In this document: positions 4,066 to 47,181 of the stretch, one piece after another
Layout of the letters: the number at the start of each line of letters is the position of its first letter
Position numbering within the stretch: the first letter of the stretch is position 1
Source of the DNA: an uncultured delta proteobacterium
Lineage (GTDB): Bacteria; Myxococcota; Myxococcia; Myxococcales; 40CM-4-68-19
Length of the DNA stretch: 64,000 bases
Direction of reading: 5' to 3'
Assembly (NCBI GenBank): GCA_903911145.1
Contig: CAIWCD010000013.1
Coordinates: 310,001 to 374,000, forward strand
Notes under the pieces: model-generated
Told to the model about the DNA's origin: nothing
The model's database searches: none
Seen by the model: the letters and a program-made list of their open reading frames with translations, nothing else
Position numbers and translations under genes: made by a program

Positions 4066-4102
4066 AGCGGCCGCTCGCGAGATCGTTGGTGTTCAAACGA
4101 TC
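4065..4102. terminator. Convergent gene-end inverted repeats (ntrC-like / recJ)
   Basis: Two dyads sit between the convergent stops. GAGCGGCCGCTC (4065-4076) is a perfect 12-bp palindrome starting in the regulator's TAG. GATCGTT...AACGATC (4081-4102) is a 7-bp stem with an 8-base loop. The second overlaps the recJ stop codon and is also a copy of the 15-bp repeat family. Neither is followed by a clear T tract, so a terminator role is inferred only from position. Confidence 0.4.
4085..4102 (+). repeat. 15-bp repeat family, copy A (straddles recJ stop)
   Basis: GTTGGTGTTCAAACGATC matches the family RTTGGYAYDCMAAVS followed by RTY. It lies in the gap between convergent genes and includes the recJ stop codon (TGA read at 4095-4093). 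Read on the plus strand it encodes VGVQTI, the same peptide pattern as the in-frame copies elsewhere in the window. Confidence 0.65.
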
Positions 4103-5922
4103 TCGGATTCGCGCACATCCTTCAGCTTCAGCTGCAGCCGCTGTGTGCCGCTCCAGCTGTCGACGCCGAGCTGGAACGCAGCATCGACCGCGGCGCCCGC
4201 CGGCAGCTTGCGATCGCCGAGACCAAATCCGATCGCGGCAAACGAGGGCGCCGCCTTCGTCGAGCCCGCCGCCAGCCGCAGCTTCAAGTGGCCCGGACCC
4301 GCGCCCCGCTTGTCCGGCAGCACGCGCGCCTCGCTGACATGAAGGCCTGCGCACGAGAAAACCGGCTCTGGGTTTCCCGCGCCGAAGGGCGCCAGACGCT
4401 GCAGCTCCTCAGCGAGCCCGAGATCGATCTCGCGGGCATCGAGGCGGGCGTCGATCTTCACGCGGGGTGCGAGCTGATCTTCGCTGAGCTGTGCAAGCGC
4501 ATCGCGCTCGAACGCCTGCGTGAACGCCTCGACGTTGCGCGCGTCGAGCGTGACTCCCGCTGCGTGTTTATGCCCGCCGAACTTCTGCAGATGTGCAGCG
4601 CAACGAGCGAGCGCGTCGTAGAGATGAAAGCCCTCGACGCTGCGTCCCGACCCCTTCGCGATTCCGTCGGCCACCGCGAGCACCAGCGCCGGCCGATGAA
4701 AGCGCTCGACCAGGCGGGCCGCGACAATCCCGACGACGCCAACGTGCCAGCCCTCCGCGCTCACCACCAGCGAACGCCGCGCGCCCGCGCCCAGCAAGGA
4801 CTCCGCGCGTTCGATCGCCTCGTTCGCGATCCGCCCTTGCAGCTCCTGTCGCTCCGCATTCGCGCGGTCGAGTTGCTCCGCGAGTTGGCGCGCCTCCGCC
4901 GCATCTTCGCTGAGCAGCAGCCGCACGCCGACCGACGCATCGTCGAGGCGACCGGCCGCATTGATGCGCGGCCCGAGCTTGAAGCCGACATCTCCCGCCG
5001 ACACCTCGCCGTGAAGCTGCGCGACCTGCTTGAGCGCAAGGATTCCCGGACGCGCGGCCAGAGAGAGTTCACGCAAGCCGTGATGCACGAGCACGCGATT
5101 GGGCCCCGCCAGCGGCACCACATCGGCCACGGTACCGAGCGCGACGAGGTCGAGCACCTCGCGCAGATTCGGCTCGGCGCGATTGGCGAACCAGCCCGCC
5201 TCGCGAAGCCGCTTGCGCAGCGCCATCAGGAGATGAAATGCGACGCCAACCGCCGCGAGTTCGCGCCCCGGGAACGTGCAGCCAGGCTGGTGCGGATTGA
5301 GGATCGCGACGGCGCGCGGCAGGTCCTCGGCGAGCTGCGAAGCGGTGTGGTGATCGATGACCACGACATCGAGCCCGAGCCTGGCTGCGCCATCGATCTC
5401 GTCGACGGCAGTGACTCCGCAATCGGCGCTGATGAGCAGCCGCGTCCCTCGCGCGACGAGCTTCTCGACCGCCGCGAGATTGAGTCCGTAGCCTTCGACC
5501 TGCCGATGCGGAATGTAGTAGTCGACGCGCGCGACCGCTCCTGGCAAGGCCGCGCGCGATTCGGCCGAACCGTTCCCCGTTCGCATGGGCGGAGCACACG
5601 CCGCAAATCGGCGCAGCATGGAGACGAGCAGCGCGGTGCTGGTCACGCCGTCGACGTCGTAGTCTCCGTAGATGCAGATCGCTTCCCGCTGCTCGAGCGC
5701 GCGCATCATCCGTGCGACGGCAGCGTCGATTCCCTTGAGACCGAACGGGTCGGGAAGCGACGAGAGGCTCGGCGCGAGGAATCGCTCGACCGCCGCCAGA
5801 TCGCGGATATTCCGCGCCCAGAGCGTCTGCGCGGTCGGGGTGCGCAAGCGGGCCGCGGACGCCAGCTGCGCAATGCCGGCGTCGCTCTCCTGATTCGTCT
5901 CCTGCTTTTCCACCCAGCGCAT
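4093..5922 (-). CDS. recJ: Single-stranded-DNA-specific exonuclease RecJ
   Basis: 609 residues, close to the usual RecJ length. RecJ is a 5'-to-3' single-strand DNA exonuclease of recombination and mismatch repair. DHH-family metal-binding motifs are present in order: YGDYDVDGVT (85-94), ADCGVT and VVIDHHTAS, followed by the DHHA1 motif GGHKHAAGVTL and a C-terminal OB-like segment. The ATG at 5922 has no clear Shine-Dalgarno sequence and is preceded within four bases by a hairpin. The gene converges with the NtrC-type regulator gene, and the YfhO-like pseudogene lies upstream on the same strand. Confidence 0.95.
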   Translation of the reverse strand: MRWVEKQETNQESDAGIAQLASAARLRTPTAQTLWARNIRDLAAVERFLAPSLSSLPDPFGLKGIDAAVARMMRALEQREAICIYGDYDVDGVTSTALLVSMLRRFAACAPPMRTGNGSAESRAALPGAVARVDYYIPHRQVEGYGLNLAAVEKLVARGTRLLISADCGVTAVDEIDGAARLGLDVVVIDHHTASQLAEDLPRAVAILNPHQPGCTFPGRELAAVGVAFHLLMALRKRLREAGWFANRAEPNLREVLDLVALGTVADVVPLAGPNRVLVHHGLRELSLAARPGILALKQVAQLHGEVSAGDVGFKLGPRINAAGRLDDASVGVRLLLSEDAAEARQLAEQLDRANAERQELQGRIANEAIERAESLLGAGARRSLVVSAEGWHVGVVGIVAARLVERFHRPALVLAVADGIAKGSGRSVEGFHLYDALARCAAHLQKFGGHKHAAGVTLDARNVEAFTQAFERDALAQLSEDQLAPRVKIDARLDAREIDLGLAEELQRLAPFGAGNPEPVFSCAGLHVSEARVLPDKRGAGPGHLKLRLAAGSTKAAPSFAAIGFGLGDRKLPAGAAVDAAFQLGVDSWSGTQRLQLKLKDVRESEIV

Positions 5923-14250: not shown

Positions 14251-14270
14251 CGGTTCAGAGCGACGAGATC

Positions 14271-14309
14271 GTCTGCACTCAAACCATTTTAGTTTGCACT
14301 CAAACCATC
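14271..14309 (+). repeat. 15-bp repeat family, two copies between queE and the phzF-like gene
   Basis: GTCTGCACTCAAACCATT (14271-14288) and GTTTGCACTCAAACCATC (14292-14309) differ at three positions and are spaced 21 bases apart, a whole number of codons. Each carries the dyad TTTG-N4-CAAA or near it. They fill most of the spacer before the phzF-like gene and end about 23 bases from its ATG. Confidence 0.75.
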
Positions 14310-14332
14310 TTCTTATCGAGAGCGGACACCCG

Positions 14333-15253
14333 ATGCGCCGACCGATCTACGTGGTGGACTCGTTCAGCGGCACGGCCTTCGGTGGAAATCCCGCAGGCGT
14401 GCTGCTCGACGGCGCCGAACTCACCGATGCGCAGCTCGCGAAGGTCGCGGCGGAGATGCGGCACAGCGAGACGGCCTTCGTGCTCCCCGCGCGAGATCCC
14501 GCGGCGAGTTTCCATCTGCGCTGGCTCACGCCGAAGGCGGAGGTCCAGTTCTGCGGGCACGCGACGCTCGCAGCGATCGCGGTGATGGTCGAGGAGGCGA
14601 GGCGCCTGCGCGTCGCCGAGCGAGGCGTCGTCAAGACAGCGTTCACCTCGCGCGCGGGCCTGTTGCGCGTCGAACTCTCACGCGACGCCGGGCGCAAGCT
14701 GCGCATCCGGTTCGAGACGCCAGCGACCGCGTTTCAACCGACCCCGGTGAGCGAGCGGCTTCTCTCCTCGCTCGGTCTCATCGCCGAGGTCCTCGACCCG
14801 ACGTTCGCGCCCCGTCGTGCGGGCGTCAGTGCCGGCAGTGAAGGCAATCTCTACATCTGCCTGCGCGAGCGCGAAAACCTCACCCGCGCCAAATGCGATC
14901 CCGCGGCACTGCAGGACGCACTCTCCGAAGCGCAGGCGTTTGGCGTGGTGCTCTTCGTGCGCTCGCCCGCGACTGGCGTGGACGCGGCGATGCGCTGCTT
15001 CTTCCCCGATCAGCTCGACGGCAGCGGCGAGGATCCGGTCACGGGCAGCGCCGCCGGCCAGCTTGCGTGCCTGCTGCAGGAGGTGTTGCCCGAGATTCTC
15101 CCGCGTTCGCTCGTCTTCTCGCAGGGCACCGAACTCGGTCGCCCTGGCCGCGTCGAGATTGACGTCCGCCCGGAGACGACGCCTGGCCAGATCCGCGCGT
15201 GGATCGGCGGCGAGTTCAGCGTGGTGCTCCGCGGCGAACTGGACCTGCGATGA
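14333..15253 (+). CDS. PhzF family isomerase/epimerase-like protein
   Basis: 306 residues of the PhzF fold (two-lobed, diaminopimelate-epimerase-like). Signatures are YVVDSFSGTAFGGNPAGVLL at the N-terminus, MRHSETAFVLP with the conserved acidic residue, VQFCGHATLAA, and GEDPVTGSAAG in the second lobe. Members isomerise small acids without cofactor, but most are uncharacterised. The ATG at 14333 fits the start of the conserved region. The gene overlaps folE2 by four bases (ATGA), so the two are probably translated together, and it sits between two pterin/deazaguanine genes. A role near that pathway is only suggested by position. Confidence 0.88.
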   Translation: MRRPIYVVDSFSGTAFGGNPAGVLLDGAELTDAQLAKVAAEMRHSETAFVLPARDPAASFHLRWLTPKAEVQFCGHATLAAIAVMVEEARRLRVAERGVVKTAFTSRAGLLRVELSRDAGRKLRIRFETPATAFQPTPVSERLLSSLGLIAEVLDPTFAPRRAGVSAGSEGNLYICLRERENLTRAKCDPAALQDALSEAQAFGVVLFVRSPATGVDAAMRCFFPDQLDGSGEDPVTGSAAGQLACLLQEVLPEILPRSLVFSQGTELGRPGRVEIDVRPETTPGQIRAWIGGEFSVVLRGELDLR

Positions 15254-16128
15254 AGAAGCAGACCCGCAAAAAGGTTGGTACACCAATCATTGGCACTCAA
15301 CACAAATTAGTTGCTTCGGCAACCAATCACTCCTCGCTGCGGGACGTCCACGCCGAGCCTGACCTGCGTCGTCTGCCTCTCGATCGAGCTGGCGTGCGCG
15401 ACCTGCGCTACCCGATCTGCGTACTCGACCGCACGCTCGGCCAGCAGCACACGCTCGCGACCATCGACATGAGCGTCTCGCTGCCGCACCGCAAGAAGGG
15501 CGCGCACATGAGCCGCTTTATCGAGCTGCTCAACCGACACCGACGAGAGATCGACATCCGCAAGTTCCGCGCGCTCGCGGCCGAGTTGCGCCGGGAGATG
15601 GATGCGGAAGCAGCGTTCGTCGAGGTTCGCTTCCCCTACTTCATCGAGAAGTCCGCGCCTGTCAGCGGCGCACGCGGACTCGTTGACTACGCCTGCACCT
15701 TCGGCGCGAGCGTCCGCGGCGAGGGCGACAGGGAAAGCGCCGAGCTCTGGGTCGAGACGGAAGTGGCGGTCACCAGCCTCTGCCCGTGCAGCAAGGCAAT
15801 CAGCGAGCAGAGCGCGCACAACCAGCGCTCCATCATGCGCGCCAAGGTCTGGTTCAAGAAGTTCTTCTGGCTCGAAGATCTCATCGCGCTCGTCGAGGAC
15901 TCGGCCAGTTGCGAGCTCTACTCGGTGCTCAAGCGGCCCGACGAGAAGTACGTCACCGAACGGGCCTACGCGCGCCCACGCTTCGTCGAGGATCTCGTGC
16001 GCGAACTGGCGACTCGCCTCCTGCGCGACAAGAATTTCTCGCGTTGGGAAATCTCGGCCGAGAGCCATGAGAGCATCCACGCGCACAACGCGTACGCCGC
16101 GCTCGCGTGGCCACACGCACCTCGTTAG
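15250..16128 (+). CDS. folE2: GTP cyclohydrolase FolE2 (type IB)
   Basis: 292 residues. FolE2 makes dihydroneopterin triphosphate from GTP, feeding folate and queuosine. Signatures are GVRDLRYPICVLDR, HMSRFIELLN, FPYFIEKSAPVSG, VTSLCPCSKAIS with the metal-binding cysteine, SAHNQRS, ASCELYSVLKRPDEKYVTERAY and ESIHAHNAYA. The ATG at 15250 overlaps the phzF-like stop. The first ~30 residues differ from usual FolE2 starts: residues 9-26 (VGTPIIGTQHKLVASATN) are encoded by copies of the 15-bp repeat, ahead of the conserved SLRDVHAEPDLRRLPLDR. The insertion keeps the frame and lies before the first conserved motif, so it is probably tolerated. Confidence 0.95.
   Translation: MKKQTRKKVGTPIIGTQHKLVASATNHSSLRDVHAEPDLRRLPLDRAGVRDLRYPICVLDRTLGQQHTLATIDMSVSLPHRKKGAHMSRFIELLNRHRREIDIRKFRALAAELRREMDAEAAFVEVRFPYFIEKSAPVSGARGLVDYACTFGASVRGEGDRESAELWVETEVAVTSLCPCSKAISEQSAHNQRSIMRAKVWFKKFFWLEDLIALVEDSASCELYSVLKRPDEKYVTERAYARPRFVEDLVRELATRLLRDKNFSRWEISAESHESIHAHNAYAALAWPHAPR
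15274..15330 (+). repeat. 15-bp repeat family, tandem copies in frame in folE2
   Basis: GTTGGTACACCAATC (15274-15288) is followed directly by ATTGGCACTCAACAC (15289-15303). Then comes GTTGC-TTCG-GCAAC (15310-15323), a 5-bp stem with a TTCG loop. In the folE2 frame the two units read VGTPI and IGTQH. The first 15-mer differs from the first unit in the macA-like gene (46144-46158 read in reverse) only at its last two bases. Confidence 0.75.
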
Positions 16129-21953: not shown

Positions 21954-21969
21954 TGCTTTGAACACCAAC
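21952..21969 (-). repeat. 15-bp repeat family, copy filling the rseP-MoxR spacer
   Basis: Read on the minus strand, GTTGGTGTTCAAAGCAAT begins with the last G of the rseP TAG stop and ends with the AT of the MoxR ATG. The whole intergenic spacer is therefore one repeat unit. It is one gap-free 13-base match (GTTGGTGTTCAAA) to the copy at the recJ stop. Confidence 0.72.
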
Positions 21970-23120
21970 TATTTCCCGAACAGCTTGTGACCGAGCTGCA
22001 GATCGCCGAACAGCGTCACGCCGATGAGCAACCCGAAGAGCAGCAGCACTCCGATGAGGCTGAGGATCTGCTCGAACTTCGCGTTCGGGCGGCGGCGCAG
22101 GACGATCTCATAGCCGAGGAAGACGAGGCGGCCACCGTCGAGTGCGGGGACGGGCAGCAGATTGAAGATGGCGAGGCCGACCGAGATCTGCGCGAGAAGC
22201 GCGACGAACTCGGCGGCGCCGCGCTTCATCGCGATGGCAGCCTGCTGGATGATGCCGAGCGGACCCGACAGAGAGGCCGCGCCGCCGCGGTGGAAGAGCA
22301 TCCCGATGGCGCCCAGCGAGGCCTGCGTGAGTTCCCACGTCACGCCGATCGCGCGCGGAATGGCCGCGAGCAGCGGCAACTGCTTGAGTTCGCGCGCATA
22401 GCCGACCTGGATGCGGCCGGCCTCCGGGTGCACGCGCAACTCGAAAGAATGACCGTCGCGCTCGAGGGAGATCGCCCGTTCGGCAGGCGCGCCCTCTTTG
22501 TGCAACTCACGAATCAGGTCCTCGAACGACGAGAGCGGCACGCCGTCCACGGAGAGGAGGCGATCGCCGTCGAGCATCCCCGCCGTCGCAGCGGGACCCG
22601 CTGGCACCACCTCGACGCGCGTGCTGTGCGGATCGACCTGGAGGAAACCGACTGTCGAATAGAGCCCGCCGATGAGGAGCACCGCGGTGATCCAGTTCAC
22701 GCCCGGACCCGCGAGGATGACGAGAAAGCGCCGCCAGGCGGGTTTGTTCAAGTACGAGCCAGCGTCGCTGTCGTCGTACTTGCCGTCGTCGTCGGGCGTG
22801 AATCCGGCGATGCGGCAGTAGCCGCCGAGGGGGAACCAGGAGATTCGATATTCAGTATCCCCACGCATCACGCCCCAGAGGCGAGGACCGAAACCGAGCG
22901 AGAAGACCTCCACGCGCATGCCCATCCAGCGCGCGACGAACATGTGCCCCGCCTCGTGGACTGCGATGAGCAGACCGAGGCCCAGCGCGGTCACGAGCTT
23001 CGCCGGCAGTCCGGCAAGCAGCCCCGCAAGCGCCGCGGAGAGCAACGGCAGCGCGATGCTTGGTGTTGCAATGATTGGCATAGCAATCATTGGCATAGCA
23101 ACGATTTGGCGGAGCTCCAT
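21969..23120 (-). CDS. rseP: RIP metalloprotease, RseP/site-2 protease family (M50)
   Basis: 383 residues. The membrane zinc protease motif HEAGH (about 55-59), the SLGFGPRLWG and PLGGYCRIAG segments, a PDZ domain around 150-230, and the second metal site NLLPVPALDGGRL are present. Such proteases cut transmembrane anti-sigma factors or signal peptides within the membrane. Residues 6-22 (IVAMPMIAMPIIATPSI) before the usual N-terminal helix are encoded by three tandem 15-bp repeats. The ATG at 23120 overlaps the NUDIX stop by one base. The usual dxr/uppS/bamA neighbours of rseP are absent, so substrate assignment to envelope stress is open. Confidence 0.9.
   Translation of the reverse strand: MELRQIVAMPMIAMPIIATPSIALPLLSAALAGLLAGLPAKLVTALGLGLLIAVHEAGHMFVARWMGMRVEVFSLGFGPRLWGVMRGDTEYRISWFPLGGYCRIAGFTPDDDGKYDDSDAGSYLNKPAWRRFLVILAGPGVNWITAVLLIGGLYSTVGFLQVDPHSTRVEVVPAGPAATAGMLDGDRLLSVDGVPLSSFEDLIRELHKEGAPAERAISLERDGHSFELRVHPEAGRIQVGYARELKQLPLLAAIPRAIGVTWELTQASLGAIGMLFHRGGAASLSGPLGIIQQAAIAMKRGAAEFVALLAQISVGLAIFNLLPVPALDGGRLVFLGYEIVLRRRPNAKFEQILSLIGVLLLFGLLIGVTLFGDLQLGHKLFGK
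23058..23102 (-). repeat. 15-bp repeat family, three perfect-phase tandem copies in rseP
   Basis: On the minus strand the units are GTTGCTATGCCAATG, ATTGCTATGCCAATC and ATTGCAACACCAAGC, exactly 15 bases each and in the rseP frame. They encode VAMPM, IAMPI and IATPS. This is the longest uninterrupted array seen in the window. Confidence 0.75.
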
Positions 23121-33366: not shown

Positions 33367-33458
33367 GGGAGCTCCCGAAAAGGGCGCGCAGAGATACACC
33401 ATCACGCACGCGAGACCACACAACGCGAACGGGCGAGTGATATTTCGAGTGCGGGTTG

Positions 33459-33496
33459 GTTGGTATGCCAACTCATTCGTTTGCACTCAAACGATT
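33459..33496 (+). repeat. 15-bp repeat family, two copies at the fadJ 3' end
   Basis: GTTGGTATGCCAACTCATTC (33459-33478) is directly followed by GTTTGCACTCAAACGATT (33479-33496). The last base enters the fadJ stop codon. The first holds the dyad TTGGTATGCCAA and the second TTTG-CACT-CAAA. The orientation is opposite to the flanking genes, so the family is not tied to coding direction. Confidence 0.75.
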
Positions 33497-45840: not shown

Positions 45841-47181
45841 CTAGTTCGGACCGCCGCGAGGCCCCTTCTCGTCGTGCTTGCCACCGGGGGCATCCTTCTT
45901 CTGCTCTTCGATCATCTGCCCGTCCTGGAGCTCGCGCGCGAGCGTCCGATACGGCCCCTCGACGATCTGCTCGCCCTCTTTGATGCCTTCAATGATCTCG
46001 ATGTCGGTGCGGCTCGCGATCCCCGTCTTCACTTCGCGCATCTCCGCCTTGCCATCCTTCATCACGAAGACGACCTTGACGGGCTTGGGCTTCCCGGTCG
46101 CAGCCGCCGTCGGAGGCGCCGACGAATTGCTTTGAGTGCCAACAGTTGGTGTACCAACCTTCTCGACCTTCAGCTCTCCCTCGCGCGCAGGGCCCGACTG
46201 CTCCTTCTTCTTCGCCTCGCGCGAGGTGACCGATTCGATCGGCACGGTGACCACGTTGTCCCGCGTGGCCGTCGCAATCGAGACCGCGGCCGACATTCCC
46301 GGCAGCACGGATGATGTTGGATCGAGCACCGCGACGCGCACGTAGAAAGTCGTCACCTCGGCATCGGTACCGGGATTCTTGATCTGCGCATTCTTGCCAA
46401 CCGCAGCGACCTTGCCGTGGAACTGGTGGTCGGCGATTGCGTCGACATCGATCGTCGCTTCATCACCCTCGTGGATCGCGACCACCTCGTGCTCACCGAC
46501 CTCGGCCTTGACCTCCATGTTCTGCAGACCGCCCATCAGCAGCACGACGTCTTCCGAAAAATCGCTGCCGCGAATGCGCTCGCCAACTTTGTGGTCGAGT
46601 TCGAGAATCGTCCCGTCGAGCGGCGCGACCAGCGTGGTGCGCGAGAGGCTGTAGAGCGCGCTCTCGAGTTGCCCCTCGTTCGATTCGACCTGCTGCTTCT
46701 GCGCCGCAAGCCGCCCCTGATCGATCTTCAGCGTCGTCTCCACCTTCTCGAGAGAAGAGTCCGAATCGAGGTGGTCCGCGACGAGCGATTTCGTGCGCGC
46801 CAGATCGCGCTTGTCCTGATCGATCTGCGCGGTGAGTTGATCAATCTGGGCCTTGTTGCTCGCAACGCCGGCGCGAAACTGCGCGACCTGCGCCTGGTAG
46901 GAGCGCTTGTCGATCTGGCCGAGGAGTTGCCCCTTCTTCACCCGATCGCCCTCGCCCACCGCGAGCGAAATCAGATCGCCCGTGACGTTGCTCGAGACCT
47001 TGACCGTCTGCACGGCCTGCAGGTGGCCCGCGGCCGTCACCAGGCGCGTGACGTTCCCGCGCTTCGCAGCAGCGAGATTCACCTCGACAGCCGGAGGCGG
47101 ATGCGGCCGCAGTCCCTGCACAGTGGCGAAGCCGACCACGCCGATCACGATGGCGGCGAGAATCCAACGACCCAACGTCAT
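45841..47181 (-). CDS. Periplasmic adaptor protein, MacA/HlyD family
   Basis: 446 residues: an N-terminal membrane anchor (RWILAAIVIGVVGFATVQGL), then a barrel-sandwich half motif (VKVSSNVTGDLISLAVGEGD), a long coiled-coil hairpin (about 95-190), the returning half (TLVAPLDGTILELDHKVGE), and beta-barrel and membrane-proximal domains. It joins the inner-membrane ABC complex to the TolC-like channel. Between the last domains is a Lys/Gly/Pro-rich insertion that includes VGTPTVGTQSNSS, encoded by the 15-bp repeat. GGAG seven bases upstream selects the ATG at 47181 over an ATG at 47205. Confidence 0.93.
   Translation of the reverse strand: MTLGRWILAAIVIGVVGFATVQGLRPHPPPAVEVNLAAAKRGNVTRLVTAAGHLQAVQTVKVSSNVTGDLISLAVGEGDRVKKGQLLGQIDKRSYQAQVAQFRAGVASNKAQIDQLTAQIDQDKRDLARTKSLVADHLDSDSSLEKVETTLKIDQGRLAAQKQQVESNEGQLESALYSLSRTTLVAPLDGTILELDHKVGERIRGSDFSEDVVLLMGGLQNMEVKAEVGEHEVVAIHEGDEATIDVDAIADHQFHGKVAAVGKNAQIKNPGTDAEVTTFYVRVAVLDPTSSVLPGMSAAVSIATATRDNVVTVPIESVTSREAKKKEQSGPAREGELKVEKVGTPTVGTQSNSSAPPTAAATGKPKPVKVVFVMKDGKAEMREVKTGIASRTDIEIIEGIKEGEQIVEGPYRTLARELQDGQMIEEQKKDAPGGKHDEKGPRGGPN
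46129..46158 (-). repeat. 15-bp repeat family, two tandem copies in frame in the macA-like gene
   Basis: On the minus strand GTTGGTACACCAACT and GTTGGCACTCAAAGC abut exactly and encode VGTPT and VGTQS in frame. AATTCG follows. The pair has the same order and phase as the pair in folE2 (VGTPI, IGTQH), 31 kb away in the window and in an unrelated gene. Confidence 0.78.

Follow-up and report, generated by a model that had tools for sequence, protein, structure and literature searches.

A repeat in the N-terminal tail of FolE2 belongs to a lineage-specific family of modular, dyad-symmetric elements

The gene for GTP cyclohydrolase FolE2 in an uncultured delta proteobacterium carries three short repeat units within its first 27 codons, ahead of the conserved enzyme. 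This raises the question of what the repeat is and how it came to stand in frame within a coding sequence. The initial annotation of the 64,000-nt stretch of DNA analysed here (the window) read it as a repeat inserted in frame, from which folE2 had gained an N-terminal extension. We addressed the question by following the repeat through the source genome (a single assembly of 5.3 Mb, 98.96% complete, 66% GC) and through the genomes of relatives.

The repeat and its family

The folE2 gene (15250..16128, + strand; 292 aa) starts with an ATG at 15250. Its codons 1-29 read MKKQTRKKVGTPIIGTQHKLVASATNHSS, then LRDVHAEPDLRR, and contain 12-nt units at 15275 (TTGGTACACCAA), 15290 (TTGGCACTCAAC) and 15311 (TTGCTTCGGCAA, inside GTTGCTTCGGCAAC), the connectors between them being TCA and then ACAAATTAG. 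The first two units open the 15-nt stretches TTGGTACACCAATCA (15275-15289) and TTGGCACTCAACACA (15290-15304). Two tandem 15-mers and a third unit, in frame with the gene and stop-free in all three frames of the forward strand, are thus present as first described; the interval originally given, 15274-15303, lies in the right place and covers only part of the element, whose full extent is about 15269..15330 (+ strand), encoding KVGTPIIGTQHKLVASATN in the N-terminal tail.

The repeat had been taken as a feature special to folE2, and is instead one of about 355 copies in the genome, a total extrapolated from 37% of the genome on the condition that this sample is representative. The two-unit pattern gave 113 + 113 matches in the source genome vs. 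1 + 2 for the reversed pattern. A copy census on 1.957 Mb (37%), using a profile built from 42 two-unit copies, returned 266 matches of at least 10 bits and none in reversed sequence; merged, these amount to 131 copies in 1.96 Mb, or 67 per Mb. The family is AT-rich against a host genome of 66% GC. No Rfam match was obtained within the window at gathering thresholds, and we found no description of the family in the open-access literature.

The copies follow a simple grammar. A single unit with its ends reads AGATSG-TTKGnnnnCMAA-CSATCT (24 nt), and elements hold one to three units, with connectors of 3 nt (TGA or TCA in most cases) or of 9 nt (e.g., TCAATTTGC), which gives the general formula AGATSG-[TTKGnnnnCMAA]-(TSA or 9-nt connector-[TTKGnnnnCMAA])0-2-CSATCT and lengths of mostly 24, 39 or 54 nt. 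Adjacent units (63 pairs) are spaced by 15 nt in 47 cases and by 21 nt in 12, with four exceptions, and the folE2 copy uses precisely these two commonest spacings. The 21-nt spacing was absent from called genes (p = 0.013), yet folE2 has one, its called start having been placed too far downstream; gene positions derive from a purpose-written gene caller and starts are approximate. That the five-codon unit keeps the reading frame, as the initial annotation pointed out, is correct but is a property of the whole family, intergenic copies included, and not of folE2.

The consensus is palindromic, and a 39-nt copy of ideal sequence folds as one long hairpin. Nevertheless, no compensatory changes were detected between the hairpin arms, and letters at paired positions agreed no better than in shuffles. 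Because of this missing covariation, a DNA site with dyad symmetry explains the data better than a conserved RNA fold, and we rejected conserved RNA structure as a property of the family. In the letter form searched, the two-unit pattern was almost entirely missing from 39 relatives, same-genus and same-family genomes included. The family is lineage-specific, dispersed, modular and dyad-symmetric, and essentially absent from the sampled relatives.

In a scan of the whole collection, two-unit patterns resembling this one turned up in 17 stretches, from actinobacteria, Chloroflexi and other groups. We rejected a cross-phylum family, since each of the ten genomes checked has essentially a single locus; these stretches therefore do not represent dispersed families, and convergence may account for them. 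Among the Actinobacteria (Cellulosimicrobium, Isoptericola, Micromonospora; L038-L045, L048, L050-L052, L054) the arrangement TTGGnnnnCCAATSATTGGnnnnCMAA occurs at one locus per genome where checked, and its flanks are similar between the Cellulosimicrobium copies.

Location of copies and mode of spread

Coding sequence makes up 91% of the sample, and of the 131 copies 65 lie inside genes, 32 overlap a gene edge and 34 are intergenic. Copies overlapping an edge are found mainly at gene 3' ends (28/32), and convergent gaps hold 20 copies vs. four in divergent gaps (p = 0.0016). In-gene copies within 75 nt of a start are more numerous than expected (11 vs. 3.6), all three codon phases are used (27, 23 and 14 copies), and the hosts are conserved, unrelated proteins such as MetG, QueG, HemF, DeoB, AstB and LpxK. 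The copies appear to be spaced at random (CV 1.0), with a density of about one per 15 kb. One stretch of ~99 kb (G000:C13:356143-454965) is free of copies, compared with a mean gap of ~12.6 kb.

The window itself illustrates this range. The profile search placed a two-unit copy with 21-nt spacing in the queE-phzF gap (14265..14310), just upstream of the gene that precedes folE2. A three-unit copy (23053..23108, - strand) stands at the start of a gene for an RseP-like Peptidase M50 with PDZ, identified by domain match (21969..23120, - strand), where it encodes IVAMPMIAMPIIATPSI within a hydrophobic N-terminal segment ahead of the M50 domain; a weak single-unit copy (21954..21973; score 7.8, near threshold) lies at the 3' end of the same gene. 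A two-unit copy in a HlyD/CusB-type membrane-fusion protein (46124..46164, - strand) encodes EKVGTPTVGTQSNS after the matched domains. Further copies mark the 3' ends of genes, with two units at the edge of a called gene (33454..33496) or with one (GATCGTTGGTGTTCAAACGATC, 4081..4104). Elsewhere, copies at the extreme N-terminus of apparent signal peptides or lipoproteins (G000 C39:135962, C2:109446, C18:134651 and C24:137463, and L010 and L019) encode peptide that is hydrophobic or forms a charged n-region, and a three-unit copy in ArgS (G000:C14:55074) falls within a stretch of ~50 residues that is missing from the solved homologue 3fnr.

Whether copies are inserted or replace resident sequence was assessed at 18 in-gene loci that could be aligned across the element to orthologues from relatives without the family; these loci were picked for conserved context and mostly hold single units, so their proportions are not estimates. 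At nine of the 18 the length change is zero and the element nucleotides align with resident codons. Such loci include QueG, where relatives have GATCGCTGG...TGGGAC and the source genome GATCGTTGGTATGCCAATGATTGGGAC, as well as AstB, LpxK, DeoB, a class II amidotransferase-like protein and a peptidase-like protein (C39:50716); AstB and DeoB still score above NCBIfam equivalog cut-offs despite their copies. Length was added at six loci, comprising HemF (+8 aa vs. two relatives), C39:65372 (+11 or +12), C24:123034 (about +5), MetG (+4), ValS (+2) and C18:140286 (a large gap where conservation is poor). The other three loci are ambiguous, namely C30:119336 (+8 vs. one relative, 0 vs. the other), BioF and C2:125006. 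When inspected for the target-site duplication of a MITE, the orthologous positions in relatives showed replacement or unclear boundaries. The original wording, a repeat inserted in frame, may hold for those in-gene copies that add length, but several others overwrite codons without adding any.

Among the alternatives, the one that survives best is a conventional mobile palindromic element of REP or MITE type, inserted whole in multiples of three with a transposase acting in trans, the zero-length copies having been trimmed later. The discrete lengths, the REP-like concentration at gene 3' ends and the eight residues added at HemF and, against one of two relatives, at C30:119336 would all suit such an element. 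It sits poorly with copies of zero net length whose flanking codons stay aligned, and with 43 different unit sequences, which are not copies of one master. Moreover, no Y1 transposase (PF01797) was matched in the 99% complete assembly, although control genomes do match, and a RAYT was rejected as the mover on this account. We consider whole insertion possible, if unlikely. A phage source was likewise rejected, there being no match in viral contigs.

We regard it as unlikely, and less probable than whole insertion, that the repeat is a genome-wide recognition motif evolving in place by molecular drive, in the manner of DNA uptake sequences or HIP1. The zero-length copies at sites that were already similar speak for this, as do the depletion of copies in genes and the absence of compensatory pair changes from a dyad-symmetric consensus, a combination expected for a protein-binding site. 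At ten gap-free loci, the DNA of the relatives resembles the element more than do phase-matched windows of the same genes (combined p about 2e-5), a resemblance that could reflect targeting of similar sites, evolution of the sites in place, or selection that kept only peptides near to the original. Stepwise point mutation could indeed have produced the zero-length copies, since the relatives compared are only about 60-75% identical in protein. On the other hand, the low density and random spacing, the absence of the motif from family relatives and the multi-unit arrays at fixed 15- and 21-nt spacings argue against drive, arrays of 39-60 nt in linkers and tails being hard to make by point mutation.

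Insertion misses the zero-length copies and point mutation hardly builds the longer arrays, and we therefore favour, with moderate confidence, copying with replacement. The folE2 N-terminus would then hold a member of the family that spread by conversion-like copying and probably persists where the peptide is tolerated. A short donor strand would pair with partly similar resident DNA and copy the element to a new place, sometimes adding 24 nt or more, so that insertion would be a variant outcome of the same process; a copy would be retained at any site where the protein tolerates the changed peptide. In folE2, the element would have landed in, or rewritten, a non-conserved tail ahead of the enzyme domain. 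That a motif can be gained by recombination has a precedent in the uptake sequences of Neisseria (PMC2397512).

More doubtful than either alternative above is that the family represents a new kind of repeat that spreads through templated overwriting of DNA partly similar to it, coding DNA included, and not by insertion, possibly with short DNA made by a reverse transcriptase of the source genome. Three reverse transcriptases are encoded there (L249:1264-2364, L250:1099-2616 and L251:1099-2622, on contigs C6, C23 and C51), two of them paralogues of ~505 aa that are 48% identical. At curated cut-offs, none of the three fell into a known class. A reverse transcriptase is absent from eight of nine sampled family relatives, and no repeat elements lie beside the three genes within flanks of roughly 1.5 kb. 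As a coincidence in one genome, these enzymes are a candidate lead only for the copying machinery. A direct repeat of ~480 nt (L251:2456-3233; 76% identical, copies offset by ~308 nt) overlaps the 5' end of the reverse transcriptase gene on C51.

The N-terminal tail of FolE2

The FolE2 domain (Pfam GCHY-1, PF02649; E = 9e-88) spans residues 30-283, equivalent to profile positions 1-260, and the alignment of solved FolE2 structures begins at residue 29-30; the repeat segment is outside the domain. FolE2 was found in all 11 sampled genomes of the same family and is 73-76% identical in nine of them, where alignments start at query residue 26-29; of the other two, one has a diverged copy (45%) and one gives a split hit. 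Alignments of the relatives start only at query residue about 26-30, and the repeat segment is absent there, as the initial annotation had anticipated. The number of residues preceding LRDVH (or its equivalent) in ten relatives is 20, 53, 6, 19, 19, 32, 5, 19, 20 and 19, a median of 19 against 29 in the source genome. As judged from sequence, the tail is conserved in neither sequence nor length, and among the genomes sampled only the source genome has the repeat in it; the possibility, raised at the outset, that relatives keep the same peptide in different codons is not borne out. In a genome labelled as the same genus (G001:C536, L067), FolE2 is only ~45% identical, in contrast to most family members, and the phzF-folE2 order is kept.

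These tails also limit the idea of an extension gained from the repeat. Among the FolE2 sequences sampled, the repeat is found only in that of the source genome, but its net effect on length is at most modest, because relatives already bear tails of 5-53 residues. As this tail is naturally variable, the VGTPIIGTQH peptide is most likely translated and neutral in function, and is probably carried along as a tolerated passenger.

A local role for the repeat, as a hairpin coupling phzF to folE2 or as a functional N-terminal peptide, is very improbable. The repeat does lie just 3' of a start codon that overlaps the upstream stop, the ATG of folE2 forming ATGA with the end of the phzF-like gene directly 5' of it (14333..15253, + strand; PF02567; gene order as in relatives), and it has a modest RNA fold (-13.3 kcal/mol, z -1.8 vs. 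shuffles). This fold is barely better than shuffled sequence, however, the identical family occupies many unrelated loci, and the tails of relatives are unrelated. That the repeat is untranslated and the true start lies downstream, as is often suspected of REPs near annotated starts in other genomes (PMC3733652), can be dismissed: folE2 follows phzF with an ATGA or GTGA overlap in ten relatives as well, and the stretch from the repeat to the conserved LRDVH holds no in-frame ATG, GTG or TTG, so that the repeat is translated if folE2 is expressed.

Relation to known palindromic repeats

DNA uptake sequences of Neisseriaceae and Pasteurellaceae are gained largely by recombination and located in permissive regions (PMC2397512). 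Like the present family, they are short motifs found genome-wide at permissive positions, both within genes and outside them, but the family is much sparser (67 per Mb), forms modular palindromic arrays and is in this form absent from relatives. HIP1 of cyanobacteria (GCGATCGC) is an iterated palindrome for which in-place gain by biased mutation was proposed (PMC4390886); it measures 8 nt and is tied to methyltransferases, whereas the elements described here are 24-54 nt long. PARCELs are coding palindromic repeat DNA (PMC2996958) that forms tandem domains of 25 residues in ORFs of unassigned function, unlike the 8-18 codons spread here across unrelated known genes.

REP elements of the GTAG/CGTC superfamilies, which go with RAYT transposases, are palindromes of 20-40 nt that form dimers, locate to 3' ends and are in part intragenic (PMC3733652). 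The concentration of a short palindrome at gene 3' ends is shared, but the present elements end in AGATSG/CSATCT without a GTAG or CGTC tag, and the genome has no Y1_Tnp gene. Rickettsia palindromic elements (RPEs) are short palindromic repeats in frame inside unrelated functional proteins (PMC3733652). In-frame copies inside otherwise conserved, unrelated genes are equally seen in the present family. In a comparison by description, its sequence and unit anatomy presumably differ from those of RPEs. RPEs were described from Rickettsia, a host unlike the present one (66% GC) in composition, whereas our family is built of modular units at 15- or 21-nt spacing, and several of its copies replace sequence without adding length. 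By analogy, the family works most like RPEs or intragenic REPs, at a level of likeness that does not establish membership of either.

That palindromic repeats stand in frame within essential proteins is a recognised puzzle, described mainly from intracellular Rickettsia and from a handful of genomes rich in REPs. Copies that add no length are not accounted for by simple insertion, and the mechanism, be it insertion, conversion or motif drive, can therefore be tested directly by strain comparison. The family described here is an independent and lineage-specific instance from a high-GC genome of 5.3 Mb; its modular grammar is clear, and biosynthetic enzymes and aminoacyl-tRNA synthetases are among the proteins that carry copies.
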